From Protonemura montana (taxonomy: Eukaryota; Arthropoda; Insecta; Plecoptera; Nemouridae), in NCBI GenBank assembly GCA_947568835.1, contig CANOQG010000007.1, positions 930,001 to 994,000 on the forward strand: a stretch of 64,000 nt of DNA. The letters are read 5' to 3'. The translations under genes and the position numbers were made by a program. Positions within the stretch are counted from its first letter, which is position 1; the number at the start of each line of letters is the position of its first letter. Below, piece by piece: positions 77 through 31,809 of the stretch. The notes under the pieces are model-generated. The model was not told where the DNA came from. It ran no database searches and was given only the letters and a program-made list of their open reading frames with translations.

Positions 77-142
77 CTGCCCCATGTCCTGCCCCATGTC
101 CTGCCCCATGTCCTGCCCCATGTCCTGCCCCATGTCTTGCCC

Positions 143-156: not shown

Positions 157-241
157 TGCCCCATGTCCTGCCCCATGTCCTACCCCATGTCCTGCCCTAT
201 GTCCTGTCTTATGTCCTGCCCCATGTCCTGCCCCATGTCCT

Positions 242-7550: not shown

Positions 7551-7857
7551 ATGTCCTGCCTCATGTCCTGCCCCATGTCCTGCCCCATAGCCTGGCCAAT
7601 GTCCTGCCCCATGTCCTGTCCCATGTCCTGCCCCATGTTTTGCCCCATGTCCTGCCCCATGTCCTGCCCTATGTCCTGTCCCATGTCCTGCCCCATGTCC
7701 TGCCCCATGTCCTGTCCCATGTCCTGCCTCATGTCCTACCCCATGTCCTGCCCTATGTCCTGCCCCATGCCCTGCCCCATGTCCTGCCCCATGTCCTGCC
7801 CCATGTCCTGCCCCATGTCCTGCCCCATGTCCTGCCCCATGTCCTGCCCCATGTCCC
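7551..7857 (+). repeat. Junction between domains 1 and 2
   Basis: A TAG landmark (7,588-7,590), then L-type start (TTTTGCC, TGCCTC, CCTACCCC), then about eight near-consensus units ending in a short unit at 7,852. A private T to C (CATGCCCTG) sits at 7,770. Confidence 0.7.
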
Positions 7858-9648
7858 ATGTCCTGCCCCATGTCCTGCCCCTTGTCCTGTCCCATTTCCT
7901 GCCCCATGTCCTACCCCATGTCCTGCCCCATGTCCTGCCCCATGTCCTGCCCCATGTCCTGCCTCATGTCCTGCCCCATGTCTTGCCCCATGTCCCATGT
8001 CCTGCCCCATGTCCTGCCCCATGTCCTGCCCCATGTCCTGCCCTATGTCCTGTCTTATGTCCTGCCCCATGTAATGCCCCATGTCCTGCTCCATGTCCTC
8101 CCCCTGTCCTGCCCTATGTCTTATGTCCTGCCCTATGTCCTGCCTCATGTCCTGCCCCATGTCCTGCCCTATGTCCTGTCCCATGTCCTGCCCCATTTCC
8201 TGCCCCATGTCCTGCTCCATGTCCTGCCCCATGTCCTGCCCCATGTCCCGCTCCATGTCCTCCCCCTGTCCTGCCTCATGTCCCATGTCCTGCCCCATGT
8301 CCTGCCCCATGTCCTGCCCCATGTCCTGCCCCATGTCCAGTCCCATGTCCTGCCCCATGTCCTGCCCTATGTGTTGCCCCATGTCCTGCCCCATGTCCTG
8401 CCCCATGTCCTGCCCCATGTCCTGCCCCATGTCCTGCCCCATGTCCTGCCCCATGTCCCATGTCCTGCCCCATGTCCTGCCCCTTGTCCTGTCCCATTTC
8501 CTGCCCCATGTCCTACCCCATGTCCTGCCCCATGTCCTGCCCCATGTCCTGCCCCATGTCCTGCCTCATGTCCTGCCCCATGTCTTGCCCCATGTCCCAT
8601 GTCCTGCCCCATGTCCTGCCCCATGTCCTGCCCCATGTCCTGCCCTATGTCCTGTCTTATGTCCTGCCCCATGTAATGCCCCATGTCCTGCTCCATGTCC
8701 TCCCCCTGTCCTGCCCTATGTCTTATGTCCTGCCCTATGTCCTGCCTCATGTCCTGCCCCATGTCCTGCCCTATGTCCTGTCCCATGTCCTGCCCCATTT
8801 CCTGCCCCATGTCCTGCTCCATGTCCTGCCCCATGTCCTGCCCCATGTCCCGCTCCATGTCCTCCCCCTGTCCTGCCTCATGTCCCATGTCCTGCCCCAT
8901 GTCCTGCCCCATGTCCTGCCCCATGTCCTGCCCCATGTCCAGTCCCATGTCCTGCCCCATGTTTTGCCCCATGTCCTGTCCAATGTCCTGCCTCATGTCC
9001 TGCCCCATGTCCTGCCCCATGTCCTGCCCCATGTCCTGCCCCATGTCCTGCCCTATGTCCTGCCCCATGTCCTGCCCCATGTCCTGCCCTATGTCCTGTC
9101 CCATGTCCTGTCCCATGTCCTGCCCCATGTCCTGCCCCATGTCCTTCCCTATGTCCTGTCCCATGTCCTGCCCCATGTCCTGCCCCATGTCCTGCTCCAT
9201 GTCCTGTCCCATGTCCTGCCCCATGTCCTGCCCCATGTCCTGCCCCATGTCCTGCCCTATGTCCTGTCCCATGTCCTGCCCCATGTCCTGCCCCATGTCC
9301 TGCCCCATGTCCTGCCCCATGTCTTTCCCCATGTCCCATGTCCTGCCTCATGTCCTGCCCCATGTCCTGCCCCATAGCCTGGTTAATGTCCTGCCCCATG
9401 TCCTGTCCCATGTCCTGCCCCATGTTTTGCCCCATGTCCTGCCCCATGTCCTTCCCTGTGTCCTGTCCCATGTCCTGCCCCATGTCCTGACCCATGTCCT
9501 GCTCCATGTCCTGTCCCATGTCCTGCCCCATGTCCTGCCCCATGTCCTGCCCCATGTCCTGCCCCATGTCCTGCCCCATGTCCTGCCCCATGTCTTTCCC
9601 CATGTCCCATGTCCTGCCTCATGTCCTGCCCCATGTCCTGCCCCATAG
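7858..9648 (+). repeat. R module 1 (1,790 bp)
   Basis: Defines R: CCCCTTGTCC and ATTTCC, CCTACC, then two TAA landmarks 602 bp apart (8074, 8676) bounding a direct 602-bp duplication. TGTGTTGCC follows in the first half (near 8,371) and TTTTGCC plus TCCAATG in the second. Next come a TTAATG-type TAG (9377), a TGACCC unit and a CCAATG-type TAG 271 bp later (9648). The five full R copies are exactly the same length. This one has a private A to G near 9,459 (CCCTGTG). It matches R3 at an offset of 9,702. Confidence 0.85.
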
Positions 9649-10722
9649 CCTGGCCAATGTCCTGCCCCATGTCCTGTCCCATGTCCTGCCCCATGTTTTG
9701 CCCCATGTCCTGCCCCATGTCCTGCCCTATGTCCTGTCCCATGTCCTGCTCCATGTCCTGCCCCATGTCTTACCTCATGTCCCATATCCTGCCTCATGTC
9801 CTGCCCCATGTCCTGCCCCATATCCTGCCCCATGTCCTGCCCCATGTCCTGCCCCATGTCCTGTCCCATGTCCTGCCCAATGTCCTGCCCCATGTCCTGC
9901 TCCATGTCCTGCCCCATGTCCTGCCCCATGTCCTGCCCTATGTCCTGCCCCATGTCCTGCCCCATGTCCTGCCCCATGTCCTGCCCTATGTCCTTCCCCA
10001 TGTCCTGCCCCATGTCCTGCCCCATGTCCTGTCCCATGTCATGTCCCATGTCCTGCTCCATGTCCTGCCCCATGTCCTGCCCCATGTCCTGCCCTATGTC
10101 CTGCCCCATGTCCTGCCCCATGTCCTGCCCCATGTCCTGCCCCATGTCCTGCCCCATGTCCTGCCCCATGTCCTGCCCCATGTCCCATGTCCTGCCCCAT
10201 GTCCTGCCCCTTGTCCTGTCCCATTTCCTGCCCCATGTCCTACCCCATGTCCTGCCCCATGTCCTGCCCCATGTCCTGCCCCATGTCCTGCCCCATGTCC
10301 TGCTCCATGTCCTGCCCCATGTCCTGCTCCATGTCCCATGTCCTGCCCCATGTCCTGCCCCATGTCCTGTCCCATGTCCTGCCTCATGTCCTGCCCCATG
10401 TCCTGCCCCATGTCCTGCCCCATGTCTTGCCCCATGTCCCATGTCCTGCCCCATGTCCTGCCCCATGTCCTACCTTATGTCCTGCCCTGTGTCCTGTCCT
10501 ATGTCCTGCCCCATGTCCTGCCCCATGTCCTGCTCCATGTCCTGCCCCATGTCCTGCTCCATGTCCCATGTCCTGCCCCATGTCCTGCCCCATGTCCTGT
10601 CCCATGTCCTGCCTCATGTCCTGCCCCATGTCCTGCCCCATGTCCTGCCCCATGTCCTGCCCCATGTCTTTCCCCATGTCCCATGTCCTGCCTCATGTCC
10701 TGCCCCATGTCCTGCCCCATAG
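9649..10722 (+). repeat. P1 module 1 (1,074 bp)
   Basis: Starts with CTTACCTC and two CATATCC variants, then CCCAATG, TTCCCCATG, GTCATGTCCC, CCCCTTGTCC, paired GCTCC units, CCTACCTTATG and CCCTGTGTCCTGTCCTATG. It ends in TCTTTCCCC and a CCATTG-type TAG landmark. It is present in each domain 2 unit. Confidence 0.8.
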
Positions 10723-11955
10723 CCTGGCCATTGTCCTGCCCCATGTCCTGTCCCATGTCCTGCCCCATGTTTTGCCCCATGTCCTGCCCCATGTCCTGCC
10801 CTATGTCCTGTCCCATGTCCTGCCCCATGTCCTGCCCCATGTCCTGTCCCATGTCCTGCCTCATGTCCTACCCCATGTCCTGCCCTATGTCCTGCCCCAT
10901 GTCCTGCCCCATGTCCTGCCCCATGTCCTGCGCCATGTCCTGCCCCATGTCCTGTCCCATGTCATGTCCCATGTCCTGCTCCATGTCCTGCCCCATGTCC
11001 TGCCCCATGGCCTGCCCTATGTCCTGCCCCATGTCCTGCCCCATGTCCTGCCCCATGTCCTGCCCCATGGCCTGCCCCATGTCCTGCCCCATGTCCCATG
11101 TCCTGCCCCATGTCCTGCCCCATGTCCTGCCCCATGTCCTGCCCCATGTCTTGCCCCATGTCTTGCCCCATGTCCCATGTCCTGCCCCATGTCCTGCCCC
11201 ATGTCCTACCCCATGTCCTGCCCTATGTCCTGTCTTATGTCCTGCCCCATGTCCTGCCCCATGTCCTGCTCCATGTCCTTCCCCTGTCCTGCCCTATGTC
11301 CCATGTCCTGCCCCATGTCTTGCCTCATGTCCTGCCCCATGTCCTGCCCTATGTCCTGTCCCATGTCCTGCCCCATTTCCTGCCCCATGTCCTGCTCCAT
11401 GTCCTGCCCCATGTCCTGCCCCATGTCCCGCTCCATGTCCTCCCCCTGTCCTGCCTCATGTCCCATGTCCTGCCCCATGTCCTGCCCCATGTCCTGCCCC
11501 ATGTCCTGCCCCATGTCCTGTCCCATGTCCTGCCCCATGTTTTGCCCCATGTCCTGTCCAATGTCCTGCCTTATGTCCTGCCCCATGTCCTGCCCCATGT
11601 CCTGCCCCATGTCCTGCCCCATGTCCTGCCCTATGTCCTGCCCCATGTCCTGCCCCATGTCCTGCCCTATGTCCTGTCCCATGTCCTGTCCCATGTCCTG
11701 CCCCATGTCCTGCCCCATGTCCTTCCCTATGTCCTGTCCCATGTCCTGCCCCATGTCCTGCCTCATGTCCTGCTCCATGTCCTGTCCCATGTCCTGCCCC
11801 ATGTCCTGCCCCATGTCCTGCCCCATGTCCTGCCCTATGTCCTGTCCCATGTCCTGCCCCATGTCCTGCCCCATGTCCTGCCCCATGTCCTGCCCCATGT
11901 CTTTCCCCATGTCCCATGTCCTGCCTCATGTCCTGCCCCATGTCCTGCCCCATAG
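10723..11955 (+). repeat. P2 module, unit 1 (1,233 bp)
   Basis: Full P2. TGCGCC lies 207 bp after the TAG, then GTCATGTCCC, two CATGGCC variants, paired TCTTGCC, CCTACC, TTCCCCTG, CCCGCTCC, CTCCCCCTG, TTTTGCC, TCCAATG, TTCCCTATG and TCTTTCCCC. P2 is the most widespread module in the window, occurring in domains 1, 2, 3 (altered) and 4. Confidence 0.85.
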
Positions 11956-13242
11956 CCTGGCCAATGTCCTGCCCCATGTCCTGTCCCATGTCCTGCCCCA
12001 TGTTTTGCCCCATGTCCTGCCCCATGTCCTGCCCTATGTCCTGTCCCATGTCCTGCCCCATGTCCTGCCCCATGTCCTGTCCCATGTCCTGCCTCATGTC
12101 CTACCCTATGTCCTGCCCCATTTCCTGCCCCATGTCCTGCCCCATGTCCTGCCCCATGTCCTGCCCCATGTCCTGCCCCATGTCCTGCCCCATGTCTTGC
12201 CCCATGTCCCATGTCCTGCCCCATGTCCTGCCCCATGTCCTACCCCATGTCCTGCCCTATGTCCTGTCTTATGTCCTGCCCCATGTCCTGCCCCATGTCC
12301 TGCTCCATGTCCTGCCCCATGTCCTGCTCCATGTCCCATGTCCTGCCCCATGTCCTGCCCCATGTCCTGTCCCATGTCCTGCCTCATGTCCTGCCCCATG
12401 TCCTGCCCCATGTCCTGCCCCATGTCCTGCCCCATGTCCTGTCCCATGTCCTGCCCCATGTCATGCCCCATGTCCTGCCCCATGTCCTGCCCCATGTCCC
12501 ATGTCCTGCCCCATGTCCTGCCCTTTGTCCTGTCCCATTTCCTGCCCCATGTCCTGCCCCATGTCCTGCCCCATGTCCTGCCCCATGTCCTGCCCCATGT
12601 CCTGCTCCATGTCCTCCCCCTGTCCTGCCCCATGTCCCATGTCCTGCCCCATGTCCTGCCCCATGTCCTTCCCCATGTCCTGCCCTATGTCCTGTCCCAT
12701 GTCCTGCCCCATGTCCTGCCCCATGTCCTGCCCTATGTCCTGCCCCATGTCTTGCCCCATGTCCCATGTCCTGCCCCATGTCCTGCCCCATGTCCTGCCC
12801 CATGTCCTGCCCTATGTCCTGCCCCATGTCGTGCCCCATTTTCTGCTCTATGTTCCACCCCATGTCCTGCCCCATGTCCCATGTCATGCCCCATGTCCTG
12901 CCCCATGTCCTGCCCCATGTCCTGTCCCATGTCCTGCTCCATGTCCTGCCCCATGTCTTACCTCATGTCCCATGTCCTGCCTCATGTCCTGCCCCATGTC
13001 CTGCCCCATATCCTGCCCCATGTCCTGCCCCATGTCCTGCCCCATGTCCTGTCCCATGTCCTGTCCCATGTCCTGCCCCATGTCCTGCCCCATGTCCTGT
13101 CCCATGTCCTGCCTCATGTCCTACCCCATGTCCTGCCCTATGTCCTGCCCCATGTCCTGCCCCATGTCCTGCCCCATGTCCTGCCCCATGTCCTGCCCCA
13201 TGTCCTGCCCCATGTCCTGCCCCATGTCCTGCCCCATGTCCC
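11956..13242 (+). repeat. L module 1 (1,288 bp)
   Basis: Links P2 to the next R. It holds CCTACCCTATG, ATTTCC, CCTACC, GTCATGCCCC, CCCTTTGTCC, CTCCCCCTG, TTCCCCATG, the CATTTTCTGCTC block at 12,837, CTTACCTC and CATATCC. The base after CTGCTC is T at 12,849. Confidence 0.8.
12837..12866 (+). other. CATTTTCTGCTC landmark (position list)
   Basis: The most diverged units in the window (CATTTTCTGCTC, then ATGTTCCACC, preceded by GTCGTGCC) lie exactly 882 bp after a TAG landmark in L and Q modules. Copies start at 12837, 22539, 28539, 37063, 39700, 43205, 45830, 50067, 52265, 52471, 54669 and 62749. The base after CTGCTC is T in the first four and C in the other eight, which separates domain 2 type from domain 3/4 type copies. 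Confidence 0.9.
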
Positions 13243-15033
13243 ATGTCCTGCCCCATGTCCTGCCCCTTGTCCTGTCCCATTTCCTGCCCCATGTCCTACC
13301 CCATGTCCTGCCCCATGTCCTGCCCCATGTCCTGCCCCATGTCCTGCCTCATGTCCTGCCCCATGTCTTGCCCCATGTCCCATGTCCTGCCCCATGTCCT
13401 GCCCCATGTCCTGCCCCATGTCCTGCCCTATGTCCTGTCTTATGTCCTGCCCCATGTAATGCCCCATGTCCTGCTCCATGTCCTCCCCCTGTCCTGCCCT
13501 ATGTCTTATGTCCTGCCCTATGTCCTGCCTCATGTCCTGCCCCATGTCCTGCCCTATGTCCTGTCCCATGTCCTGCCCCATTTCCTGCCCCATGTCCTGC
13601 TCCATGTCCTGCCCCATGTCCTGCCCCATGTCCCGCTCCATGTCCTCCCCCTGTCCTGCCTCATGTCCCATGTCCTGCCCCATGTCCTGCCCCATGTCCT
13701 GCCCCATGTCCTGCCCCATGTCCAGTCCCATGTCCTGCCCCATGTCCTGCCCTATGTGTTGCCCCATGTCCTGCCCCATGTCCTACCCCATGTCCTGCCC
13801 CATGTCCTGCCCCATGTCCTGCCCCATGTCCTGCCCCATGTCCCATGTCCTGCCCCATGTCCTGCCCCTTGTCCTGTCCCATTTCCTGCCCCATGTCCTA
13901 CCCCATGTCCTGCCCCATGTCCTGCCCCATGTCCTGCCCCATGTCCTGCCTCATGTCCTGCCCCATGTCTTGCCCCATGTCCCATGTCCTGCCCCATGTC
14001 CTGCCCCATGTCCTGCCCCATGTCCTGCCCTATGTCCTGTCTTATGTCCTGCCCCATGTAATGCCCCATGTCCTGCTCCATGTCCTCCCCCTGTCCTGCC
14101 CTATGTCTTATGTCCTGCCCTATGTCCTGCCTCATGTCCTGCCCCATGTCCTGCCCTATGTCCTGTCCCATGTCCTGCCCCATTTCCTGCCCCATGTCCT
14201 GCTCCATGTCCTGCCCCATGTCCTGCCCCATGTCCCGCTCCATGTCCTCCCCCTGTCCTGCCTCATGTCCCATGTCCTGCCCCATGTCCTGCCCCATGTC
14301 CTGCCCCATGTCCTGCCCCATGTCCAGTCCCATGTCCTGCCCCATGTTTTGCCCCATGTCCTGTCCAATGTCCTGCCTCATGTCCTGCCCCATGTCCTGC
14401 CCCATGTCCTGCCCCATGTCCTGCCCCATGTCCTGCCCTATGTCCTGCCCCATGTCCTGCCCCATGTCCTGCCCTATGTCCTGTCCCATGTCCTGTCCCA
14501 TGTCCTGCCCCATGTCCTGCCCCATGTCCTTCCCTATGTCCTGTCCCATGTCCTGCCCCATGTCCTGCCCCATGTCCTGCTCCATGTCCTGTCCCATGTC
14601 CTGCCCCATGTCCTGCCCCATGTCCTGCCCCATGTCCTGCCCTATGTCCTGTCCCATGTCCTGCCCCATGTCCTGCCCCATGTCCTGCCCCATGTCCTGC
14701 CCCATGTCTTTCCCCATGTCCCATGTCCTGCCTCATGTCCTGCCCCATGTCCTGCCCCATAGCCTGGTTAATGTCCTGCCCCATGTCCTGTCCCATGTCC
14801 TGCCCCATGTTTTGCCCCATGTCCTGCCCCATGTCCTTCCCTATGTCCTGTCCCATGTCCTGCCCCATGTCCTGACCCATGTCCTGATCCATGTCCTGTC
14901 CCATGTCCTGCCCCCTGTCCTGCCCCATGTCCTGCCCCATGTCCTGCCCCATGTCCTGCCCCATGTCCTGCCCCATGTCTTTCCCCATGTCCCATGTCCT
15001 GCCTCATGTCCTGCCCCATGTCCTGCCCCATAG
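13243..15033 (+). repeat. R module 2 (1,790 bp)
   Basis: Same length and landmarks as R1 (offset 5,385) but a different subtype: after TGACCC it reads TGATCC (near 14,888), with CCCCCTGTCC near 14,913. R4, R5 and the partial R at 33,331 share these two changes. R1 and R3 do not. A private CCTACCCC unit sits near 13,792. Confidence 0.85.
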
Positions 15034-16083
15034 CCTGGCCAATGTCCTGCCCCATGTCCTGTCCCATGTCCTGCCCCATGTTTTGCCCCATGTCCTGCCC
15101 CATGTCCTGCCCTATGTCCTGTCCCATGTCCTGCTCCATGTCCTGCCCCATGTCTTACCTCATGTCCCATATCCTGCCTCATGTCCTGCCCCATGTCCTG
15201 CCCCATATCCTGCCCCATGTCCTGCCCCATGTCCTGCCCCATGTCCTGTCCCATGTCCTGCCCAATGTCCTGCCCCATGTCCTGCTCCATGTCCTGCCCC
15301 ATGTCCTGCCCCATGTCCTGCCCTATGTCCTGCCCCATGTCCTGCCCCATGTCCTGCCCCATGTCCTGCCCTATGTCCTTCCCCATGTCCTGCCCCATGT
15401 CCTGCCCCATGTCCTGTCCCATGTCATGTCCCATGTCCTGCTCCATGTCCTGCCCCATGTCCTGCCCCATGTCCTGCCCCATGTCCTGCCCCATGTCCTG
15501 CCCCATGTCCTGCCCCATGTCCTGCCCCATGTCCTGCCCCATGTCCCATGTCCTGCCCCATGTCCTGCCCCTTGTCCTGTCCCATTTCCTGCCCCATGTC
15601 CTACCCCATGTCCTGCCCCATGTCCTGCCCCATGTCCTGCCCCATGTCCTGCCCCATGTCCTGCTCCATGTCCTGCCCCATGTCCTGCTCCATGTCCCAT
15701 GTCCTGCCCCATGTCCTGCCCCATGTCCTGTCCCATGTCCTGCCTCATGTCCTGCCCCATGTCCTGCCCCATGTCCTGCCCCATGTCTTGCCCCATGTCC
15801 CATGTCCTGCCCCATGTCCTGCCCCATGTCCTACCTTATGTCCTGCCCTGTGTCCTGTCTTATGTCCTGCCCCATGTCCTGCCCCATGTCCTGCTCCATG
15901 TCCTGCCCCATGTCCTGCTCCATGTCCCATGTCCTGCCCCATGTCCTGCCCCATGTCCTGTCCCATGTCCTGCCTCATGTCCTGCCCCATGTCCTGCCCC
16001 ATGTCCTGCCCCATGTCCTGCCCCATGTCTTTCCCCATGTCCCATGTCCTGCCTCATGTCCTGCCCCATGTCCTGCCCCATAG
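15034..16083 (+). repeat. P1 module 2 (1,050 bp)
   Basis: As P1 of unit 1 but 24 bp (two units) shorter, lost around 15,470. It has TGTCTTATG where P1 copies 1 and 3 have TGTCCTATG. Confidence 0.8.
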
Positions 16084-17316
16084 CCTGGCCATTGTCCTGC
16101 CCCATGTCCTGTCCCATGTCCTGCCCCATGTTTTGCCCCATGTCCTGCCCCATGTCCTGCCCTATGTCCTGTCCCATGTCCTGCCCCATGTCCTGCCCCA
16201 TGTCCTGTCCCATGTCCTGCCTCATGTCCTACCCCATGTCCTGCCCTATGTCCTGCCCCATGTCCTGCCCCATGTCCTGCCCCATGTCCTGCGCCATGTC
16301 CTGCCCCATGTCCTGTCCCATGTCATGTCCCATGTCCTGCTCCATGTCCTGCCCCATGTCCTGCCCCATGGCCTGCCCTATGTCCTGCCCCATGTCCTGC
16401 CCCATGTCCTGCCCCATGTCCTGCCCCATGGCCTGCCCCATGTCCTGCCCCATGTCCCATGTCCTGCCCCATGTCCTGCCCCATGTCCTGCCCCATGTCC
16501 TGCCCCATGTCTTGCCCCATGTCTTGCCCCATGTCCCATGTCCTGCCCCATGTCCTGCCCCATGTCCTACCCCATGTCCTGCCCTATGTCCTGTCTTATG
16601 TCCTGCCCCATGTCCTGCCCCATGTCCTGCTCCATGTCCTTCCCCTGTCCTGCCCTATGTCCCATGTCCTGCCCCATGTCTTGCCTCATGTCCTGCCCCA
16701 TGTCCTGCCCTATGTCCTGTCCCATGTCCTGCCCCATTTCCTGCCCCATGTCCTGCTCCATGTCCTGCCCCATGTCCTGCCCCATGTCCCGCTCCATGTC
16801 CTCCCCCTGTCCTGCCTCATGTCCCATGTCCTGCCCCATGTCCTGCCCCATGTCCTGCCCCATGTCCTGCCCCATGTCCTGTCCCATGTCCTGCCCCATG
16901 TTTTGCCCCATGTCCTGTCCAATGTCCTGCCTTATGTCCTGCCCCATGTCCTGCCCCATGTCCTGCCCCATGTCCTGCCCCATGTCCTGCCCTATGTCCT
17001 GCCCCATGTCCTGCCCCATGTCCTGCCCTATGTCCTGTCCCATGTCCTGTCCCATGTCCTGCCCCATGTCCTGCCCCATGTCCTTCCCTATGTCCTGTCC
17101 CATGTCCTGCCCCATGTCCTGCCTCATGTCCTGCTCCATGTCCTGTCCCATGTCCTGCCCCATGTCCTGCCCCATGTCCTGCCCCATGTCCTGCCCTATG
17201 TCCTGTCCCATGTCCTGCCCCATGTTCTGCCCCATGTCCTGCCCCATGTCCTGCCCCATGTCTTTCCCCATGTCCCATGTCCTGCCTCATGTCCTGCCCC
17301 ATGTCCTGCCCCATAG
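16084..17316 (+). repeat. P2 module, unit 2 (1,233 bp)
   Basis: Full P2, offset 5,361 from unit 1. Near 17,225 it reads CATGTTCTG. That change recurs in the 1,053-bp P2 copies of 31,810-36,181, which suggests this unit, rather than unit 1 or 3, is their closest relative. Confidence 0.8.
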
Positions 17317-17559
17317 CCTGGCCAATGTCCTGCCCCATGTCCTGTCCCATGTCCTGCCCCATGTTTTGCCCCATTTCCTGCCCCATGTCCTGCCCTATGT
17401 CCTGTCCCATGTCCTGCCCCATGTCCTGCCCCATGTCCTGTCCCATGTCCTGCCTCATGTCCTACCCTATGTCCTGCCCCATTTCCTGCCCCATGTCCTG
17501 CCCCATGTCCTGCCCCATGTCCTGCCCTATGTCCTGCCCCATGTCCTGCCCCATGTCCC
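17317..17559 (+). repeat. L module 2, deleted to 244 bp
   Basis: Only the first part of L remains (TTTTGCC, a private CATTTCC, CCTACCCTATG, ATTTCC) before sequence jumps to the R start at 17,560. About 1,044 bp is missing compared with L1, so this HOR unit is 4,317 rather than 5,385 bp. Confidence 0.8.
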
Positions 17560-19350
17560 ATGTCCTGCCCCATGTCCTGCCCCTTGTCCTGTCCCATTTC
17601 CTGCCCCATGTCCTACCCCATGTCCTGCCCCATGTCCTGCCCCATGTCCTGCCCCATGTCCTGCCTCATGTCCTGCCCCATGTCTTGCCCCATGTCCCAT
17701 GTCCTGCCCCATGTCCTGCCCCATGTCCTGCCCCATGTCCTGCCCTATGTCCTGTCTTATGTCCTGCCCCATGTAATGCCCCATGTCCTGCTCCATGTCC
17801 TCCCCCTGTCCTGCCCTATGTCTTATGTCCTGCCCTATGTCCTGCCTCATGTCCTGCCCCATGTCCTGCCCTATGTCCTGTCCCATGTCCTGCCCCATTT
17901 CCTGCCCCATGTCCTGCTCCATGTCCTGCCCCATGTCCTGCCCCATGTCCCGCTCCATGTCCTCCCCCTGTCCTGCCTCATGTCCCATGTCCTGCCCCAT
18001 GTCCTGCCCCATGTCCTGCCCCATGTCCTGCCCCATGTCCAGTCCCATGTCCTGCCCCATGTCCTGCCCTATGTGTTGCCCCATGTCCTGCCCCATGTCC
18101 TGCCCCATGTCCTGCCCCATGTCCTGCCCCATGTCCTGCCCCATGTCCTGCCCCATGTCCCATGTCCTGCCCCATGTCCTGCCCCTTGTCCTGTCCCATT
18201 TCCTGCCCCATGTCCTACCCCATGTCCTGCCCCATGTCCTGCCCCATGTCCTGCCCCATGTCCTGCCTCATGTCCTGCCCCATGTCTAGCCCCATGTCCC
18301 ATGTCCTGCCCCATGTCCTGCCCCATGTCCTGCCCCATGTCCTGCCCTATGTCCTGTCTTATGTCCTGCCCCATGTAATGCCCCATGTCCTGCTCCATGT
18401 CCTCCCCCTGTCCTGCCCTATGTCTTATGTCCTGCCCTATGTCCTGCCTCATGTCCTGCCCCATGTCCTGCCCTATGTCCTGTCCCATGTCCTGCCCCAT
18501 TTCCTGCCCCATGTCCTGCTCCATGTCCTGCCCCATGTCCTGCCCCATGTCCCGCTCCATGTCCTCCCCCTGTCCTGCCTCATGTCCCATGTCCTGCCCC
18601 ATGTCCTGCCCCATGTCCTGCCCCATGTCCTGCCCCATGTCCAGTCCCATGTCCTGCCCCATGTTTTGCCCCATGTCCTGTCCAATGTCCTGCCTCATGT
18701 CCTGCCCCATGTCCTGCCCCATGTCCTGCCCCATGTCCTGCCCCATGTCCTGCCCTATGTCCTGCCCCATGTCCTGCCCCATGTCCTGCCCTATGTCCTG
18801 TCCCATGTCCTGTCCCATGTCCTGCCCCATGTCCTGCCCCATGTCCTTCCCTATGTCCTGTCCCATGTCCTGCCCCATGTCCTGCCCCATGTCCTGCTCC
18901 ATGTCCTGTCCCATGTCCTGCCCCATGTCCTGCCCCATGTCCTGCCCCATGTCCTGCCCTATGTCCTGTCCCATGTCCTGCCCCATGTCCTGCCCCATGT
19001 CCTGCCCCATGTCCTGCCCCATGTCTTTCCCCATGTCCCATGTCCTGCCTCATGTCCTGCCCCATGTCCTGCCCCATAGCCTGGTTAATGTCCTGCCCCA
19101 TGTCCTGTCCCATGTCCTGCCCCATGTTTTGCCCCATGTCCTGCCCCATGTCCTTCCCTATGTCCTGTCCCATGTCCTGCCCCATGTCCTGACCCATGTC
19201 CTGCTCCATGTCCTGTCCCATGTCCTGCCCCATGTCCTGCCCCATGTCCTGCCCCATGTCCTGCCCCATGTCCTGCCCCATGTCCTGCCCCATGTCTTTC
19301 CCCATGTCCCATGTCCTGCCTCATGTCCTGCCCCATGTCCTGCCCCATAG
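17560..19350 (+). repeat. R module 3 (1,790 bp)
   Basis: Matches R1 at an offset of 9,702, including GCTCC rather than GATCC after TGACCC. It carries a private T to A at 18,288 making GTCTAGCC. That base is T in R1 at 8,586. Confidence 0.85.
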
Positions 19351-20424
19351 CCTGGCCAATGTCCTGCCCCATGTCCTGTCCCATGTCCTGCCCCATGTTT
19401 TGCCCCATGTCCTGCCCCATGTCCTGCCCTATGTCCTGTCCCATGTCCTGCTCCATGTCCTGCCCCATGTCTTACCTCATGTCCCATATCCTGCCTCATG
19501 TCCTGCCCCATGTCCTGCCCCATATCCTGCCCCATGTCCTGCCCCATGTCCTGCCCCATGTCCTGTCCCATGTCCTGCCCAATGTCCTGCCCCATGTCCT
19601 GCTCCATGTCCTGCCCCATGTCCTGCCCCATGTCCTGCCCTATGTCCTGCCCCATGTCCTGCCCCATGTCCTGCCCCATGTCCTGCCCTATGTCCTTCCC
19701 CATGTCCTGCCCCATGTCCTGCCCCATGTCCTGTCCCATGTCATGTCCCATGTCCTGCTCCATGTCCTGCCCCATGTCCTGCCCCATGTCCTGCCCTATG
19801 TCCTGCCCCATGTCCTGCCCCATGTCCTGCCCCATGTCCTGCCCCATGTCCTGCCCCATGTCCTGCCCCATGTCCTGCCCCATGTCCCATGTCCTGCCCC
19901 ATGTCCTGCCCCTTGTCCTGTCCCATTTCCTGCCCCATGTCCTACCCCATGTCCTGCCCCATGTCCTGCCCCATGTCCTGCCCCATGTCCTGCCCCATGT
20001 CCTGCTCCATGTCCTGCCCCATGTCCTGCTCCATGTCCCATGTCCTGCCCCATGTCCTGCCCCATGTCCTGTCCCATGTCCTGCCTCATGTCCTGCCCCA
20101 TGTCCTGCCCCATGTCCTGCCCCATGTCTTGCCCCATGTCCCATGTCCTGCCCCATGTCCTGCCCCATGTCCTACCTTATGTCCTGCCCTGTGTCCTGTC
20201 CTATGTCCTGCCCCATGTCCTGCCCCATGTCCTGCTCCATGTCCTGCCCCATGTCCTGCTCCATGTCCCATGTCCTGCCCCATGTCCTGCCCCATGTCCT
20301 GTCCCATGTCCTGCCTCATGTCCTGCCCCATGTCCTGCCCCATGTCCTGCCCCATGTCCTGCCCCATGTCTTTCCCCATGTCCCATGTCCTGCCTCATGT
20401 CCTGCCCCATGTCCTGCCCCATAG
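19351..20424 (+). repeat. P1 module 3 (1,074 bp)
   Basis: Offset 9,702 copy of P1 module 1, sharing its TGTCCTATG subtype and CCATTG-type TAG end. Confidence 0.8.
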
Positions 20425-21657
20425 CCTGGCCATTGTCCTGCCCCATGTCCTGTCCCATGTCCTGCCCCATGTTTTGCCCCATGTCCTGCCCCATGTCCTG
20501 CCCTATGTCCTGTCCCATGTCCTGCCCCATGTCCTGCCCCATGTCCTGTCCCATGTCCTGCCTCATGTCCTACCCCATGTCCTGCCCTATGTCCTGCCCC
20601 ATGTCCTGCCCCATGTCCTGCCCCATGTCCTGCGCCATGTCCTGCCCCATGTCCTGTCCCATGTCATGTCCCATGTCCTGCTCCATGTCCTGCCCCATGT
20701 CCTGCCCCATGGCCTGCCCTATGTCCTGCCCCATGTCCTGCCCCATGTCCTGCCCCATGTCCTGCCCCATGGCCTGCCCCATGTCCTGCCCCATGTCCCA
20801 TGTCCTGCCCCATGTCCTGCCCCATGTCCTGCCCCATGTCCTGCCCCATGTCTTGCCCCATGTCTTGCCCCATGTCCCATGTCCTGCCCCATGTCCTGCC
20901 CCATGTCCTACCCCATGTCCTGCCCTATGTCCTGTCTTATGTCCTGCCCCATGTCCTGCCCCATGTCCTGCTCCATGTCCTTCCCCTGTCCTGCCCTATG
21001 TCCCATGTCCTGCCCCATGTCTTGCCTCATGTCCTGCCCCATGTCCTGCCCTATGTCCTGTCCCATGTCCTGCCCCATTTCCTGCCCCATGTCCTGCTCC
21101 ATGTCCTGCCCCATGTCCTGCCCCATGTCCCGCTCCATGTCCTCCCCCTGTCCTGCCTCATGTCCCATGTCCTGCCCCATGTCCTGCCCCATGTCCTGCC
21201 CCATGTCCTGCCCCATGTCCTGTCCCATGTCCTGCCCCATGTTTTGCCCCATGTCCTGTCCAATGTCCTGCCTTATGTCCTGCCCCATGTCCTGCCCCAT
21301 GTCCTGCCCCATGTCCTGCCCCATGTCCTGCCCTATGTCCTGCCCCATGTCCTGCCCCATGTCCTGCCCTATGTCCTGTCCCATGTCCTGTCCCATGTCC
21401 TGCCCCATGTCCTGCCCCATGTCCTTCCCTATGTCCTGTCCCATGTCCTGCCCCATGTCCTGCCTCATGTCCTGCTCCATGTCCTGTCCCATGTCCTGCC
21501 CCATGTCCTGCCCCATGTCCTGCCCCATGTCCTGCCCTATGTCCTGTCCCATGTCCTGCCCCATGTCCTGCCCCATGTCCTGCCCCATGTCCTGCCCCAT
21601 GTCTTTCCCCATGTCCCATGTCCTGCCTCATGTCCTGCCCCATGTCCTGCCCCATAG
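20425..21657 (+). repeat. P2 module, unit 3 (1,233 bp)
   Basis: Offset 9,702 copy of the P2 at 10,723-11,955. TGCGCC starts at 20,631. Confidence 0.85.
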
Positions 21658-22944
21658 CCTGGCCAATGTCCTGCCCCATGTCCTGTCCCATGTCCTGCCC
21701 CATGTTTTGCCCCATGTCCTGCCCCATGTCCTGCCCTATGTCCTGTCCCATGTCCTGCCCCATGTCCTGCCCCATGTCCTGTCCCATGTCCTGCCTCATG
21801 TCCTACCCTATGTCCTGCCCCATTTCCTGCCCCATGTCCTGCCCCATGTCCTGCCCCATGTCCTGCCCCATGTCCTGCCCCATGTCCTGCCCCATGTCTT
21901 GCCCCATGTCCCATGTCCTGCCCCATGTCCTGCCCCATGTCCTACCCCATGTCCTGCCCTATGTCCTGTCTTATGTCCTGCCCCATGTCCTGCCCCATGT
22001 CCTGCTCCATGTCCTGCCCCATGTCCTGCTCCATGTCCCATGTCCTGCCCCATGTCCTGCCCCATGTCCTGTCCCATGTCCTGCCTCATGTCCTGCCCCA
22101 TGTCCTGCCCCATGTCCTGCCCCATGTCCTGCCCCATGTCCTGTCCCATGTCCTGCCCCATGTCATGCCCCATGTCCTGCCCCATGTCCTGCCCCATGTC
22201 CCATGTCCTGCCCCATGTCCTGCCCTTTGTCCTGTCCCATTTCCTGCCCCATGTCCTGCCCCATGTCCTGCCCCATGTCCTGCCCCATGTCCTGCCCCAT
22301 GTCCTGCTCCATGTCCTCCCCCTGTCCTGCCCCATGTCCCATGTCCTGCCCCATGTCCTGCCCCATGTCCTTCCCCATGTCCTGCCCTATGTCCTGTCCC
22401 ATGTCCTGCCCCATGTCCTGCCCCATGTCCTGCCCTATGTCCTGCCCCATGTCTTGCCCCATGTCCCATGTCCTGCCCCATGTCCTGCCCCATGTCCTGC
22501 CCCATGTCCTGCCCTATGTCCTGCCCCATGTCGTGCCCCATTTTCTGCTCTATGTTCCACCCCATGTCCTGCCCCATGTCCCATGTCATGCCCCATGTCC
22601 TGCCCCATGTCCTGCCCCATGTCCTGTCCCATGTCCTGCTCCATGTCCTGCCCCATGTCTTACCTCATGTCCCATGTCCTGCCTCATGTCCTGCCCCATG
22701 TCCTGCCCCATATCCTGCCCCATGTCCTGCCCCATGTCCTGCCCCATGTCCTGTCCCATGTCCTGTCCCATGTCCTGCCCCATGTCCTGCCCCATGTCCT
22801 GTCCCATGTCCTGCCTCATGTCCTACCCCATGTCCTGCCCTATGTCCTGCCCCATGTCCTGCCCCATGTCCTGCCCCATGTCCTGCCCCATGTCCTGCCC
22901 CATGTCCTGCCCCATGTCCTGCCCCATGTCCTGCCCCATGTCCC
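21658..22944 (+). repeat. L module 3 (1,288 bp)
   Basis: Offset 9,702 copy of L module 1, with the CATTTTCTGCTC block at 22,539 and T at 22,551. Confidence 0.8.
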
Positions 22945-24735
22945 ATGTCCTGCCCCATGTCCTGCCCCTTGTCCTGTCCCATTTCCTGCCCCATGTCCTA
23001 CCCCATGTCCTGCCCCATGTCCTGCCCCATGTCCTGCCCCATGTCCTGCCTCATGTCCTGCCCCATGTCTTGCCCCATGTCCCATGTCCTGCCCCATGTC
23101 CTGCCCCATGTCCTGCCCCATGTCCTGCCCTATGTCCTGTCTTATGTCCTGCCCCATGTAATGCCCCATGTCCTGCTCCATGTCCTCCCCCTGTCCTGCC
23201 CTATGTCTTATGTCCTGCCCTATGTCCTGCCTCATGTCCTGCCCCATGTCCTGCCCTATGTCCTGTCCCATGTCCTGCCCCATTTCCTGCCCCATGTCCT
23301 GCTCCATGTCCTGCCCCATGTCCTGCCCCATGTCCCGCTCCATGTCCTCCCCCTGTCCTGCCTCATGTCCCATGTCCTGCCCCATGTCCTGCCCCATGTC
23401 CTGCCCCATGTCCTGCCCCATGTCCAGTCCCATGTCCTGCCCCATGTCCTGCCCTATGTGTTGCCCCATGTCCTGCCCCATGTCCTGCCCCATGTCCTGC
23501 CCCATGTCCTGCCCCATGTCCTGCCCCATGTCCTGCCCCATGTCCCATGTCCTGCCCCATGTCCTGCCCCTTGTCCTGTCCCATTTCCTGCCCCATGTCC
23601 TACCCCATGTCCTGCCCCATGTCCTGCCCCATGTCCTGCCCCATGTCCTGCCTCATGTCCTGCCCCATGTCTTGCCCCATGTCCCATGTCCTGCCCCATG
23701 TCCTGCCCCATGTCCTGCCCCATGTCCTGCCCTATGTCCTGTCTTATGTCCTGCCCCATGTAATGCCCCATGTCCTGCTCCATGTCCTCCCCCTGTCCTG
23801 CCCTATGTCTTATGTCCTGCCCTATGTCCTGCCTCATGTCCTGCCCCATGTCCTGCCCTATGTCCTGTCCCATGTCCTGCCCCATTTCCTGCCCCATGTC
23901 CTGCTCCATGTCCTGCCCCATGTCCTGCCCCATGTCCCGCTCCATGTCCTCCCCCTGTCCTGCCTCATGTCCCATGTCCTGCCCCATGTCCTGCCCCATG
24001 TCCTGCCCCATGTCCTGCCCCATGTCCAGTCCCATGTCCTGCCCCATGTTTTGCCCCATGTCCTGTCCAATGTCCTGCCTCATGTCCTGCCCCATGTCCT
24101 GCCCCATGTCCTGCCCCATGTCCTGCCCCATGTCCTGCCCTATGTCCTGCCCCATGTCCTGCCCCATGTCCTGCCCTATGTCCTGTCCCATGTCCTGTCC
24201 CATGTCCTGCCCCATGTCCTGCCCCATGTCCTTCCCTATGTCCTGTCCCATGTCCTGCCCCATGTCCTGCCCCATGTCCTGCTCCATGTCCTGTCCCATG
24301 TCCTGCCCCATGTCCTGCCCCATGTCCTGCCCCATGTCCTGCCCTATGTCCTGTCCCATGTCCTGCCCCATGTCCTGCCCCATGTCCTGCCCCATGTCCT
24401 GCCCCATGTCTTTCCCCATGTCCCATGTCCTGCCTCATGTCCTGCCCCATGTCCTGCCCCATAGCCTGGTTAATGTCCTGCCCCATGTCCTGTCCCATGT
24501 CCTGCCCCATGTTTTGCCCCATGTCCTGCCCCATGTCCTTCCCTATGTCCTGTCCCATGTCCTGCCCCATGTCCTGACCCATGTCCTGATCCATGTCCTG
24601 TCCCATGTCCTGCCCCCTGTCCTGCCCCATGTCCTGCCCCATGTCCTGCCCCATGTCCTGCCCCATGTCCTGCCCCATGTCTTTCCCCATGTCCCATGTC
24701 CTGCCTCATGTCCTGCCCCATGTCCTGCCCCATAG
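22945..24735 (+). repeat. R module 4 (1,790 bp)
   Basis: Matches R2 at 9,702 and R5 at 6,000. It has the GATCC and CCCCCTG subtype. Its two TAA landmarks end at 23,161 and 23,763. Confidence 0.85.
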
Positions 24736-26095
24736 CCTGGCCAATGTCCTGCCCCATGTCCTGTCCCATGTCCTGCCCCATGTTTTGCCCCATGTCCTGC
24801 CCCATGTCCTGCCCTATGTCCTGTCCCATGTCCTGCTCCATGTCCTGCCCCATGTCTTACCTCATGTCCCATATCCTGCCTCATGTCCTGCCCCATGTCC
24901 TGCCCCATATCCTGCCCCATGTCCTGCCCCATGTCCTGCCCCATGTCCTGTCCCATGTCCTGCCCAATGTCCTGCCCCATGTCCTGCTCCATGTCCTGCC
25001 CCATGTCCTGCCCCATGTCCTGCCCTATGTCCTGCCCCATGTCCTGCCCCATGTCCTGCCCCATGTCCTGCGCCATGTCCTGCCCCATGTCCTGTCCCAT
25101 GTCATGTCCCATGTCCTGCTCCATGTCCTGCCCCATGTCCTGCCCCATGGCCTGCCCTATGTCCTGCCCCATGTCCTGCCCCATGTCCTGCCCCATGTCC
25201 TGCCCCATGGCCTGCCCCATGTCCTGCCCCATGTCCCATGTCCTGCCCCATGTCCTGCCCCATGTCCTGCCCCATGTCCTGCCCCATGTCTTGCCCCATG
25301 TCTTGCCCCATGTCCCATGTCCTGCCCCATGTCCTGCCCCATGTCCTACCCCATGTCCTGCCCTATGTCCTGTCTTATGTCCTGCCCCATGTCCTGCCCC
25401 ATGTCCTGCTCCATGTCCTTCCCCTGTCCTGCCCTATGTCCCATGTCCTGCCCCATGTCTTGCCTCATGTCCTGCCCCATGTCCTGCCCTATGTCCTGTC
25501 CCATGTCCTGCCCCATTTCCTGCCCCATGTCCTGCTCCATGTCCTGCCCCATGTCCTGCCCCATGTCCCGCTCCATGTCCTCCCCCTGTCCTGCCTCATG
25601 TCCCATGTCCTGCCCCATGTCCTGCCCCATGTCCTGCCCCATGTCCTGCCCCATGTCCTGTCCCATGTCCTGCCCCATGTTTTGCCCCATGTCCTGTCCA
25701 ATGTCCTGCCTTATGTCCTGCCCCATGTCCTGCCCCATGTCCTGCCCCATGTCCTGCCCCATGTCCTGCCCTATGTCCTGCCCCATGTCCTGCAACATGT
25801 CCTGCCCTATGTCCTGTCCCATGTCCTGTCCCATGTCCTGCCCCATGTCCTGCCCCATGTCCTTCCCTATGTCCTGTCCCATGTCCTGCCCCATGTCCTG
25901 CCTCATGTCCTGCTCCATGTCCTGTCCCATGTCCTGCCCCATGTCCTGCCCCATGTCCTGCCCCATGTCCTGCCCTATGTCCTGTCCCATGTCCTGCCCC
26001 ATGTCCTGCCCCATGTCCTGCCCCATGTCCTGCCCCATGTCTTTCCCCATGTCCCATGTCCTGCCTCATGTCCTGCCCCATGTCCTGCCCCATAG
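24736..26095 (+). repeat. P1-P2 fusion with 947-bp deletion
   Basis: The first about 334 bp are P1. Sequence then enters P2 at TGCGCC (25,069). In unit 3 TGCGCC lies 1,281 bp after the TAG, so 947 bp including the whole P1/P2 boundary is absent. The remaining P2 part runs the standard 1,026 bp to the TAG at 26,095. A private CCTGCAACATG unit lies near 25,793. Confidence 0.85.
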
Positions 26096-27316
26096 CCTGG
26101 CCAATGTCCTGCCCCATGTCCTGTCCCATGTCCTGCCCCATGTTTTGCCCCATGTCCTGCCCCATGTCCTGCCCTATGTCCTGTCCCATGTCCTGCCCCA
26201 TGTCCTGCCCCATGTCCTGTCCCATGTCCTGCCTCATGTCCTACCCTATGTCCTGCCCCATTTCCTGCCCCATGTCCTGCCCCATGTCCTGCGCCATGTC
26301 CTGCCCCATGTCCTGTCCCATGTCATGTCCCATGTCCTGCTCCATGTCCTGCCCCATGTCCTGCCCCATGGCCTGCCCTATGTCCTGCCCCATGTCCTGC
26401 CCCATGTCCTGCCCCATGTCCTGCCCCATGGCCTGCCCCATGTCCTGCCCCATGTCCCATGTCCTGCCCCATGTCCTGCCCCATGTCCTGCCCCATGTCC
26501 TGCCCCATGTCTTGCCCCATGTCTTGCCCCATGTCCCATGTCCTGCCCCATGTCCTGCCCCATGTCCTACCCCATGTCCTGCCCTATGTCCTGTCTTATG
26601 TCCTGCCCCATGTCCTGCCCCATGTCCTGCTCCATGTCCTTCCCCTGTCCTGCCCTATGTCCCATGTCCTGCCCCATGTCTTGCCTCATGTCCTGCCCCA
26701 TGTCCTGCCCTATGTCCTGTCCCATGTCCTGCCCCATTTCCTGCCCCATGTCCTGCTCCATGTCCTGCCCCATGTCCTGCCCCATGTCCCGCTCCATGTC
26801 CTCCCCCTGTCCTGCCTCATGTCCCATGTCCTGCCCCATGTCCTGCCCCATGTCCTGCCCCATGTCCTGCCCCATGTCCTGTCCCATGTCCTGCCCCATG
26901 TTTTGCCCCATGTCCTGTCCAATGTCCTGCCTTATGTCCTGCCCCATGTCCTGCCCCATGTCCTGCCCCATGTCCTGCCCCATGTCCTGCCCTATGTCCT
27001 GCCCCATGTCCTGCAACATGTCCTGCCCTATGTCCTGTCCCATGTCCTGTCCCATGTCCTGCCCCATGTCCTGCCCCATGTCCTTCCCTATGTCCTGTCC
27101 CATGTCCTGCCCCATGTCCTGCCTCATGTCCTGCTCCATGTCCTGTCCCATGTCCTGCCCCATGTCCTGCCCCATGTCCTGCCCCATGTCCTGCCCTATG
27201 TCCTGTCCCATGTCCTGCCCCATGTCCTGCCCCATGTCCTGCCCCATGTCCTGCCCCATGTCTTTCCCCATGTCCCATGTCCTGCCTCATGTCCTGCCCC
27301 ATGTCCTGCCCCATAG
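26096..27316 (+). repeat. 1,221-bp tandem duplicate of P2 part
   Basis: A copy of 24,875-26,095 at an offset of exactly 1,221. TGCGCC is at 25,069 and 26,290, and the TAG at 26,095 and 27,316. The otherwise unseen CCTGCAACATG variant is in both (near 25,793 and 27,014), so the duplication followed that mutation. I saw no difference between copies over the P2 part. Confidence 0.85.
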
Positions 27317-28944
27317 CCTGGCCAATGTCCTGCCCCATGTCCTGTCCCATGTCCTGCCCCATGTTTTGCCCCATGTCCTGCCCCATGTCCTGCCCTATGT
27401 CCTGTCCCATGTCCTGCCCCATGTCCTGCCCCATGTCCTGTCCCATGTCCTGCCTCATGTCCTACCCTATGTCCTGCCCCATTTCCTGCCCCATGTCCTG
27501 CCCCATGTCCTGCCCCATGTCCTGCCCCATGTCCTGCCCCATGTCCTGCCCCATGTCTTGCCCCATGTCCCATGTCCTGCCCCATGTCCTGCCCCATGTC
27601 CTACCCCATGTCCTGCCCTATGTCCTGTCTTATGTCCTGCCCCATGTCCTGCCCCATGTCCTGCTCCATGTCCTGCCCCATGTCCTGCTCCATGTCCCAT
27701 GTCCTGCCCCATGTCCTGCCCCATGTCCTGTCCCATGTCCTGCCTCATGTCCTGCCCCATGTCCTGCCCCATGTCCTGCCCCATGTCCTGCCCCATGTCC
27801 TGTCCCATGTCCTGCCCCATGTCATGCCCCATGTCCTGCCCCATGTCCTGCCCCATGTCCCATGTCCTGCCCCATGTCCTGCCCTTTGTCCTGTCCCATT
27901 TCCTGCCCCATGTCCTGCCCCATGTCCTGCCCCATGTCCTGCCCCATGTCCTGCCCCATGTCCTGCTCCATGTCCTCCCCCTGTCCTGCCCCATGTCCCA
28001 TGTCCTGCCCCATGTCCTGCCCCATGTCCTTCCCCATGTCCTGCCCTATGTCCTGTCCCATGTCCTGCCCCATGTCCTGCCCCATGTCCTGCCCTATGTC
28101 CTGCCCCATGTCTTGCCCCATGTCCTGCCCCATGTCCTTCCCCATGTCCTGCCCTATGTCCTGTCCCATGTCCTGCCCCATGTCCTGCCCCATGTCCTGC
28201 CCCATGTCCTGCCCTTTGTCCTGTCCCATTTCCTGCCCCATGTCCTGCCCCATGTCCTGCCCCATGTCCTGCCCCATGTCCTGCCCCATGTCCTGCTCCA
28301 TGTCCTCCCCCTGTCCTGCCCCATGTCCCATGTCCTGCCCCATGTCCTGCCCCATGTCCTTCCCCATGTCCTGCCCTATGTCCTGTCCCATGTCCTGCCC
28401 CATGTCCTGCCCCATGTCCTCCCCCTGTCCTGCCCCATGTCCCATGTCCTGCCCCATGTCCTGCCCCATGTCCTTCCCCATGTCCTGCCCCATGTCCTGC
28501 CCCATGTCCTGCCCTATGTCCTGCCCCATGTCGTGCCCCATTTTCTGCTCTATGTTCCACCCCATGTCCTGCCCCATGTCCCATGTCATGCCCCATGTCC
28601 TGCCCCATGTCCTGCCCCATGTCCTGTCCCATGTCCTGCTCCATGTCCTGCCCCATGTCTTACCTCATGTCCCATGTCCTGCCTCATGTCCTGCCCCATG
28701 TCCTGCCCCATATCCTGCCCCATGTCCTGCCCCATGTCCTGCCCCATGTCCTGTCCCATGTCCTGTCCCATGTCCTGCCCCATGTCCTGCCCCATGTCCT
28801 GTCCCATGTCCTGCCTCATGTCCTACCCCATGTCCTGCCCTATGTCCTGCCCCATGTCCTGCCCCATGTCCTGCCCCATGTCCTGCCCCATGTCCTGCCC
28901 CATGTCCTGCCCCATGTCCTGCCCCATGTCCTGCCCCATGTCCC
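27317..28944 (+). repeat. L module 4, expanded to 1,629 bp
   Basis: L with 341 extra bases between about 28,120 and 28,495. There the TTCCCCATG and CTCCCCCTG units occur several times in scrambled order. On either side it matches L3 at offsets of 5,659 and 6,000. The CATTTTCTGCTC block is at 28,539 with T at 28,551. Confidence 0.8.
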
Positions 28945-30735
28945 ATGTCCTGCCCCATGTCCTGCCCCTTGTCCTGTCCCATTTCCTGCCCCATGTCCTA
29001 CCCCATGTCCTGCCCCATGTCCTGCCCCATGTCCTGCCCCATGTCCTGCCTCATGTCCTGCCCCATGTCTTGCCCCATGTCCCATGTCCTGCCCCATGTC
29101 CTGCCCCATGTCCTGCCCCATGTCCTGCCCTATGTCCTGTCTTATGTCCTGCCCCATGTAATGCCCCATGTCCTGCTCCATGTCCTCCCCCTGTCCTGCC
29201 CTATGTCTTATGTCCTGCCCTATGTCCTGCCTCATGTCCTGCCCCATGTCCTGCCCTATGTCCTGTCCCATGTCCTGCCCCATTTCCTGCCCCATGTCCT
29301 GCTCCATGTCCTGCCCCATGTCCTGCCCCATGTCCCGCTCCATGTCCTCCCCCTGTCCTGCCTCATGTCCCATGTCCTGCCCCATGTCCTGCCCCATGTC
29401 CTGCCCCATGTCCTGCCCCATGTCCAGTCCCATGTCCTGCCCCATGTCCTGCCCTATGTGTTGCCCCATGTCCTGCCCCATGTCCTGCCCCATGTCCTGC
29501 CCCATGTCCTGCCCCATGTCCTGCCCCATGTCCTGCCCCATGTCCCATGTCCTGCCCCATGTCCTGCCCCTTGTCCTGTCCCATTTCCTGCCCCATGTCC
29601 TACCCCATGTCCTGCCCCATGTCCTGCCCCATGTCCTGCCCCATGTCCTGCCTCATGTCCTGCCCCATGTCTTGCCCCATGTCCCATGTCCTGCCCCATG
29701 TCCTGCCCCATGTCCTGCCCCATGTCCTGCCCTATGTCCTGTCTTATGTCCTGCCCCATGTAATGCCCCATGTCCTGCTCCATGTCCTCCCCCTGTCCTG
29801 CCCTATGTCTTATGTCCTGCCCTATGTCCTGCCTTATGTCCTGCCCCATGTCCTGCCCTATGTCCTGTCCCATGTCCTGCCCCATTTCCTGCCCCATGTC
29901 CTGCTCCATGTCCTGCCCCATGTCCTGCCCCATGTCCCGCTCCATGTCCTCCCCCTGTCCTGCCTCATGTCCCATGTCCTGCCCCATGTCCTGCCCCATG
30001 TCCTGCCCCATGTCCTGCCCCATGTCCAGTCCCATGTCCTGCCCCATGTTTTGCCCCATGTCCTGTCCAATGTCCTGCCTCATGTCCTGCCCCATGTCCT
30101 GCCCCATGTCCTGCCCCATGTCCTGCCCCATGTCCTGCCCTATGTCCTGCCCCATGTCCTGCCCCATGTCCTGCCCTATGTCCTGTCCCATGTCCTGTCC
30201 CATGTCCTGCCCCATGTCCTGCCCCATGTCCTTCCCTATGTCCTGTCCCATGTCCTGCCCCATGTCCTGCCCCATGTCCTGCTCCATGTCCTGTCCCATG
30301 TCCTGCCCCATGTCCTGCCCCATGTCCTGCCCCATGTCCTGCCCTATGTCCTGTCCCATGTCCTGCCCCATGTCCTGCCCCATGTCCTGCCCCATGTCCT
30401 GCCCCATGTCTTTCCCCATGTCCCATGTCCTGCCTCATGTCCTGCCCCATGTCCTGCCCCATAGCCTGGTTAATGTCCTGCCCCATGTCCTGTCCCATGT
30501 CCTGCCCCATGTTTTGCCCCATGTCCTGCCCCATGTCCTTCCCTATGTCCTGTCCCATGTCCTGCCCCATGTCCTGACCCATGTCCTGATCCATGTCCTG
30601 TCCCATGTCCTGCCCCCTGTCCTGCCCCATGTCCTGCCCCATGTCCTGCCCCATGTCCTGCCCCATGTCCTGCCCCATGTCTTTCCCCATGTCCCATGTC
30701 CTGCCTCATGTCCTGCCCCATGTCCTGCCCCATAG
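28945..30735 (+). repeat. R module 5 (1,790 bp)
   Basis: Offset 6,000 copy of R4, with the GATCC and CCCCCTG subtype. Small private changes include CCTTATG near 29,834. From about 30,012 it is also the left arm of the 3,319-bp duplication. Confidence 0.85.
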
Positions 30736-31809
30736 CCTGGCCAATGTCCTGCCCCATGTCCTGTCCCATGTCCTGCCCCATGTTTTGCCCCATGTCCTGC
30801 CCCATGTCCTGCCCTATGTCCTGTCCCATGTCCTGCTCCATGTCCTGCCCCATGTCTTACCTCATGTCCCATATCCTGCCTCATGTCCTGCCCCATGTCC
30901 TGCCCCATATCCTGCCCCATGTCCTGCCCCATGTCCTGCCCCATGTCCTGTCCCATGTCCTGCCCAATGTCCTGCCCCATGTCCTGCTCCATGTCCTGCC
31001 CCATGTCCTGCCCCATGTCCTGCCCTATGTCCTGCCCCATGTCCTGCCCCATGTCCTGCCCCATGTCCTGCCCTATGTCCTTCCCCATGTCCTGCCCCAT
31101 GTCCTGCCCCATGTCCTGTCCCATGTCATGTCCCATGTCCTGCTCCATGTCCTGCCCCATGTCCTGCCCCATGTCCTGCCCTATGTCCTGCCCCATGTCC
31201 TGCCCCATGTCCTGCCCCATGTCCTGCCCCATGTCCTGCCCCATGTCCTGCCCCATGTCCTGCCCCATGTCCCATGTCCTGCCCCATGTCCTGCCCCTTG
31301 TCCTGTCCCATTTCCTGCCCCATGTCCTACCCCATGTCCTGCCCCATGTCCTGCCCCATGTCCTGCCCCATGTCCTGCCCCATGTCCTGCTCCATGTCCT
31401 GCCCCATGTCCTGCTCCATGTCCCATGTCCTGCCCCATGTCCTGCCCCATGTCCTGTCCCATGTCCTGCCTCATGTCCTGCCCCATGTCCTGCCCCATGT
31501 CCTGCCCCATGTCTTGCCCCATGTCCCATGTCCTGCCCCATGTCCTGCCCCATGTCCTACCTTATGTCCTGCCCTGTGTCCTGTCTTATGTCCTGCCCCA
31601 TGTCCTGCCCCATGTCCTGCTCCATGTCCTGCCCCATGTCCTGCTCCATGTCCCATGTCCTGCCCCATGTCCTGCCCCATGTCCTGTCCCATGTCCTGCC
31701 TCATGTCCTGCCCCATGTCCTGCCCCATGTCCTGCCCCATGTCCTGCCCCATGTCTTTCCCCATGTCCCATGTCCTGCCTCATGTCCTGCCCCATGTCCT
31801 GCCCCATAG
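30736..31809 (+). repeat. P1 module 5 (1,074 bp)
   Basis: Full-length P1 with TGTCTTATG, as in P1 module 2, but without that copy's 24-bp loss. CCATTG-type TAG end. Confidence 0.8.

Follow-up and report, generated by a model that had tools for sequence, protein, structure and literature searches.

A 12-bp satellite array in Protonemura montana with kilobase-scale higher-order units of variable length

Introduction

Kilobase-scale units built on short monomers are known from human satellite DNA. The available part of PMC4022460 describes a unit of 3.6 kb for DYZ1/HSat3 on the Y chromosome and a unit of 1.77 kb for HSat2 on chromosome 1. According to the available part of PMC10199239, the monomers of HSat1A, HSat2 and HSat3 range from 5 to 42 bp, and those of alpha satellite from 160 to 180 bp. 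In higher-order repeats (HORs) of alpha satellite, the blocks are 97–100% alike and the monomers within a unit are approximately 70% alike, as stated in the portion of PMC8122249 at hand. A short satellite from Drosophila, dodeca, has units of 11 and 12 bp and a C-rich strand that forms i-motifs (PMC4542561, available text).

The DNA analyzed here is a stretch of 64,000 nucleotides from Protonemura montana (the window), and all features are given on its forward (+) strand. It includes an interval, 7858–30735, that the original prediction described as a regular 5.4-kb HOR composed of modules R, P1, P2 and L. As far as the accessible descriptions go, the present array is like DYZ1 and HSat2 in carrying kilobase higher-order units on short monomers. 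The title of a report by Nakahori et al. reportedly places the DYZ1 unit on a pentamer, whereas TRF found here a GC-rich 12-mer, CCCCATGTCCTG, and not a pentamer. Unlike in HSat2 and DYZ1, the unit lengths in the present array vary and no single unit is dominant. The view that an HOR of this size is unusual for a 12-mer was weakened by these published human units, one of them on so short a monomer.

The likeness to dodeca is limited to unit length and C-richness, judged from the portion of the source available. The dodeca consensus probably differs from the present monomer. A further difference is that the available text of PMC4542561 mentions no multi-kilobase unit. Compared with alpha satellite, the array shows the same combination of near-identical blocks with divergent monomers inside, and it is an HOR in that sense (PMC8122249, in the part available); it differs from the alpha-satellite monomers of 160–180 bp in the available part of PMC10199239 by its 12-bp monomer and its variable unit lengths.

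An exact 28-base monomer pattern had no match in viral contigs or in prokaryote genome contigs. A distant blastn search of positions 8001–9500 against phages and plasmids gave no match, a result to be read with the low-complexity filter in mind, which may hide such a query. When the monomer was looked up in the literature in 24 rotations covering both strands, there was no satellite-DNA title among the matches listed. One 12-mer occurs three times in the available text of PMC7265228, where it lies in sequence flanking the D segments of cattle antibodies.

The array and its monomer

TRF returned a single row for the full 64-kb window, an uninterrupted tandem array of the monomer from position 1 to 64000. 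TRF and monomer alignment together gave approximately 5,470 copies in a single orientation, and base counts over the whole window gave a GC content of 62%. The locus qualifies as satellite DNA: a single monomer is repeated head to tail over a long distance, always in the same orientation. The reverse-complement monomer was absent from the whole window and the worst 100-bp window held only 13 off-consensus bases; thus, no inserted element or inversion was seen, and inverted or foreign inserts were rejected.

Circular-profile alignment of the whole window resolved 5,468 monomers into as few as 74 types, 14 of which are singletons; some extra types arise from the splitting of monomers with a 5-bp loss into an 8-mer and an 11-mer by this method. 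The same alignment counted 3,266 mismatches to the consensus per 64,000 bases (monomers are approximately 5% off consensus); it placed no insertions and 396 deletions, which fall into three types: a 5-bp loss with two placements (288 and 23 events) and a 1-bp loss (85 events). The two placements of the 5-bp loss are equivalent, and the 19-bp double monomers that result represent 311 of the 396 length variants. C>T changes constitute 2,239 of the 3,266 mismatches when counted by copy and 50 of 111 when counted by distinct 12-mer type. A strong position bias was also observed: at consensus position 6, the T is altered in 1 of 5,470 copies, compared to 694 of 5,159 for the first C and 662 of 5,447 for the fourth C. 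CpG is nearly absent, with 56 observed and 4,723 expected from base composition, and the consensus contains none. Only 62 distinct 12-mers were observed compared to 223 ± 11 expected under independent site variation, which suggested that variants spread through block copying.

Higher-order units between 7858 and 30735

The unit starts at 7858, 13243, 17560, 22945 and 28945 were confirmed. Their 24-base left flanks are identical, and they are spaced by 5,385, 4,317, 5,385 and 6,000 bp. The R module measures 1,790 bp in all five units and aligns without gaps, every one of the 10 pairs showing one to four mismatches. It consists of segments of 602, 602 and 586 bp, the two 602-bp elements lying in tandem and differing at 10 positions. 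The second of these (8460–9061) was found at 13 places with at most four mismatches, itself included, and eight of these places lie outside the interval. Each of the 50-mer offsets predicted for this structure was present when pairs were counted across the whole window: 9,702 bp was the most common (6,977 pairs), followed by 5,385 bp (3,945 pairs), with 2,355 pairs at 6,000 bp and 1,978 at 4,317 bp.

Unit 1 (7858–13242, with R at 7858–9647) and unit 3 (17560–22944) are both 5,385 bp long and differ by two mismatches, an identity of 99.96%. Unit 2 (13243–17559; 4,317 bp) is shorter than unit 1 by losses of 24 bp and 1,044 bp, both of which were recovered by gapped alignment. In unit 4 (22945–28944; 6,000 bp), 947 bp are skipped, 1,221 bp are duplicated in tandem and 341 bp are extra. 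Tile matches and boundary homology recovered the 947-bp loss and the 1,221-bp gain, which a plain alignment of units 3 and 4 breaks into smaller gaps: unit 4 from 25042 corresponds to unit 3 from 20604, and the same stretch begins again at 26263. The tandem duplication therefore occupies 25042–27483, with copies at 25042–26262 and 26263–27483 and an exact match of 1,251 bp. Over 2,126 bp, units 2 and 4 differ by one mismatch. The R module of unit 5 lies at 28945–30734, and this unit runs beyond the end originally proposed, aligning with unit 3 over 3,748 bp without gaps and with five mismatches.

The extra 341 bp of unit 4 (28124–28464) were recovered as a separate segment by gapped alignment and also appear in tile matches and in the copying-model parse described below. 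Their best ungapped match has 61 mismatches out of 341, and the parse renders the stretch 28114–28475 as three short, mismatch-free copies of nearby unit sequence. The segment could be a gain in unit 4 or reflect a loss elsewhere.

The five R copies contain six variable sites, of which four are private and two separate units 1 and 3 from units 2, 4 and 5. Downstream of R, 1,510 bp can be aligned among units 1, 2, 3 and 5 (unit 4 is not alignable there), and the one variable site sets units 1 and 3 against units 2 and 5. These three sites indicate the order A B A B B for the five units, the pattern that duplication of a two-unit block would be expected to produce. An origin of unit 5 as a mixture of both types was rejected, as this unit groups with unit 2 downstream as well and is of type B throughout. 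From these few sites we infer, as the simplest order, that the pair A B may have been duplicated, that unit 2 would have lost its 1,044 and 24 bp, and that the tail of unit 4 was probably altered at some stage. The losses in unit 2 may predate or postdate this duplication, as the tail of unit 4 departs from that of unit 2. Since the second copy of the 9,702-bp two-unit block breaks off at 25041, further changes in unit 4 have to be assumed.

Duplications across the whole window

The longest exact repeat in the window is 4,326 bp, compared to 122–146 bp in five shuffles of monomer order, and long repeats of this kind are therefore not due to chance. With near-identity defined as at least 98.5% in 300-bp windows, duplications of at least 1 kb span 95.9% of the window and those of at least 2 kb span 80.3%. 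The sequence was also parsed under a copying model, in which every base is copied from elsewhere in the window and costs are charged for mismatches and for changes of source. The parse reduced the 64 kb to 39 segments and 60 mismatches, where one difference between two copies may count twice as copies from either side are allowed. In contrast, three controls with shuffled monomer order required 620, 591 and 594 segments with 2,098, 2,188 and 2,190 mismatches. When the costs were set in three other ways, the real sequence was parsed into 39, 39 and 41 segments.

The largest tandem block in the parse is the 9,702-bp pair of units at 7782–25041, with a first copy at 7782–17483 and a partial second copy at 17484–25041. 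The 1,221-bp block from 25042 onward also appears in the parse. Other blocks lie outside the proposed interval or across its end. A 3.73-kb block occupies the left stretch at 81–7482 (copies 81–3810 and 3811–7482; offsets 3730/3737), and parse and offsets together gave a 3,319-bp block at 29973–36091 (copies 29973–33291 and 33292–36091) and a 4,237-bp block at 43879–51354 (copies 43879–48115 and 48116–51354). In the right part, 55925–63574, the parse is more finely divided, into a mosaic of pieces whose other occurrences lie near 2.8, 8.4, 10–12.5 and 43–46 kb. Twelve of the 39 segment starts fall between 7,000 and 32,000 and 27 elsewhere. As a boundary, the interval 7858–30735 did not hold up, given the extent of the duplications and the recurrence of its modules outside; within the array it is a section of greater coherence, not a separate entity. 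Among several nested duplications, the R/P/L units stand out most clearly.

Of the proposed regular 5.4-kb HOR, the higher-order structure stood and the regularity did not. Multi-monomer blocks are far more alike than the monomers in them (units 1 and 3 against the monomer mismatch count above), but a unit of constant length does not run through the array. A true regular HOR of chromosome type, seen in this window at a disturbed edge, would account for the five units, for the equal length and near identity of units 1 and 3 and for the second rank of the 5,385-bp offset. However, only two of the four complete units have this length, periods of 3,730, 3,319 and 4,237 bp prevail in other stretches, and parts of the unit are found outside in other orders, which make this explanation unlikely.

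We likewise give little credence to an assembly artefact, in which the order of the blocks, or the number of their copies, would have been created by the assembler in a repeat that exceeds the reads in length. Exact repeats as long as 4,326 bp are prone to graph errors. However, the copies carry private differences (the four private sites in R and the 60 parse mismatches), the blocks are unequal in length, and the monomer alignment of the 64 kb, with no inserted bases and deletions of just three kinds, is unlike raw read error.

Probable mode of growth of the array

The reading that we favor, with a probability of roughly 85%, is that of a non-coding 12-bp satellite that has expanded through recurrent duplications and deletions of blocks in register, as by unequal exchange. 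A limited set of monomer variants would have arisen first. Blocks of approximately 0.6 to 10 kb would then have been duplicated in tandem, deleted and rejoined repeatedly, always in the 12-bp register. We infer that unequal exchange between misaligned copies is the most likely route, although replication slippage or break-induced copying would be expected to leave the same outcome in the sequence.

All 39 segments of the parse share the 12-bp phase of their source, as expected from any repeat-guided joining. Simulations of random in-phase duplications and deletions, seeded with 15.4 kb from the window and run for 16–59 events, yielded 27–39 segments in all eight runs. Where segments of 200 bp or more adjoin, the overlap had a median of 30 bp (n = 33), compared to 24.5 bp for simulated random in-phase joins (n = 208, eight runs), and a preference of the junctions for long homology was not supported (one-sided p = 0.30). 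Against a weaker control of random same-phase pairs, whose median was 14, the junctions had appeared to favor long homology. The agreement in both segments and overlaps indicates that register alone suffices, and that crossover, slippage and break-induced copying are indistinguishable in these data.

A more specific proposal is that the window may belong to a hitherto undescribed block of heterochromatin or centromere, where i-motif or G-rich folding, as in dodeca, would maintain the C-rich 12-mer and turnover by block copying would be very fast. Best-matching copies across the 64 kb differ by approximately one base per kilobase, which under this proposal would follow from the speed of turnover. 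As pattern counts taken without a control, tracts of at least three C with loops of 1–12 bases cover 73.7% of the window and strict four-C tracts cover 23.9%. This proposal appears improbable. A repetitive protein-coding gene, conceivable as 12 is a multiple of 3 and as there are 46 open frames of at least 400 codons (the longest, 3,423 codons at 53232–63503, being an arithmetic effect of the stop-free 12-mer), is rejected as next to impossible, because a monomer without stops leaves several frames open as a matter of arithmetic, the 5-bp (311) and 1-bp (85) losses shift the frame throughout the array, and the listed frames overlap each other.

Implications

The sequence of this array is new but its kind is known; the array is an ordinary outcome of satellite evolution and gives no sign of a novel type of element. 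It shows cleanly how a simple 12-bp satellite gains kilobase-scale structure, as 64 kb can be written as so few copied segments and mismatches, and models of satellite turnover can conveniently be tested on it.
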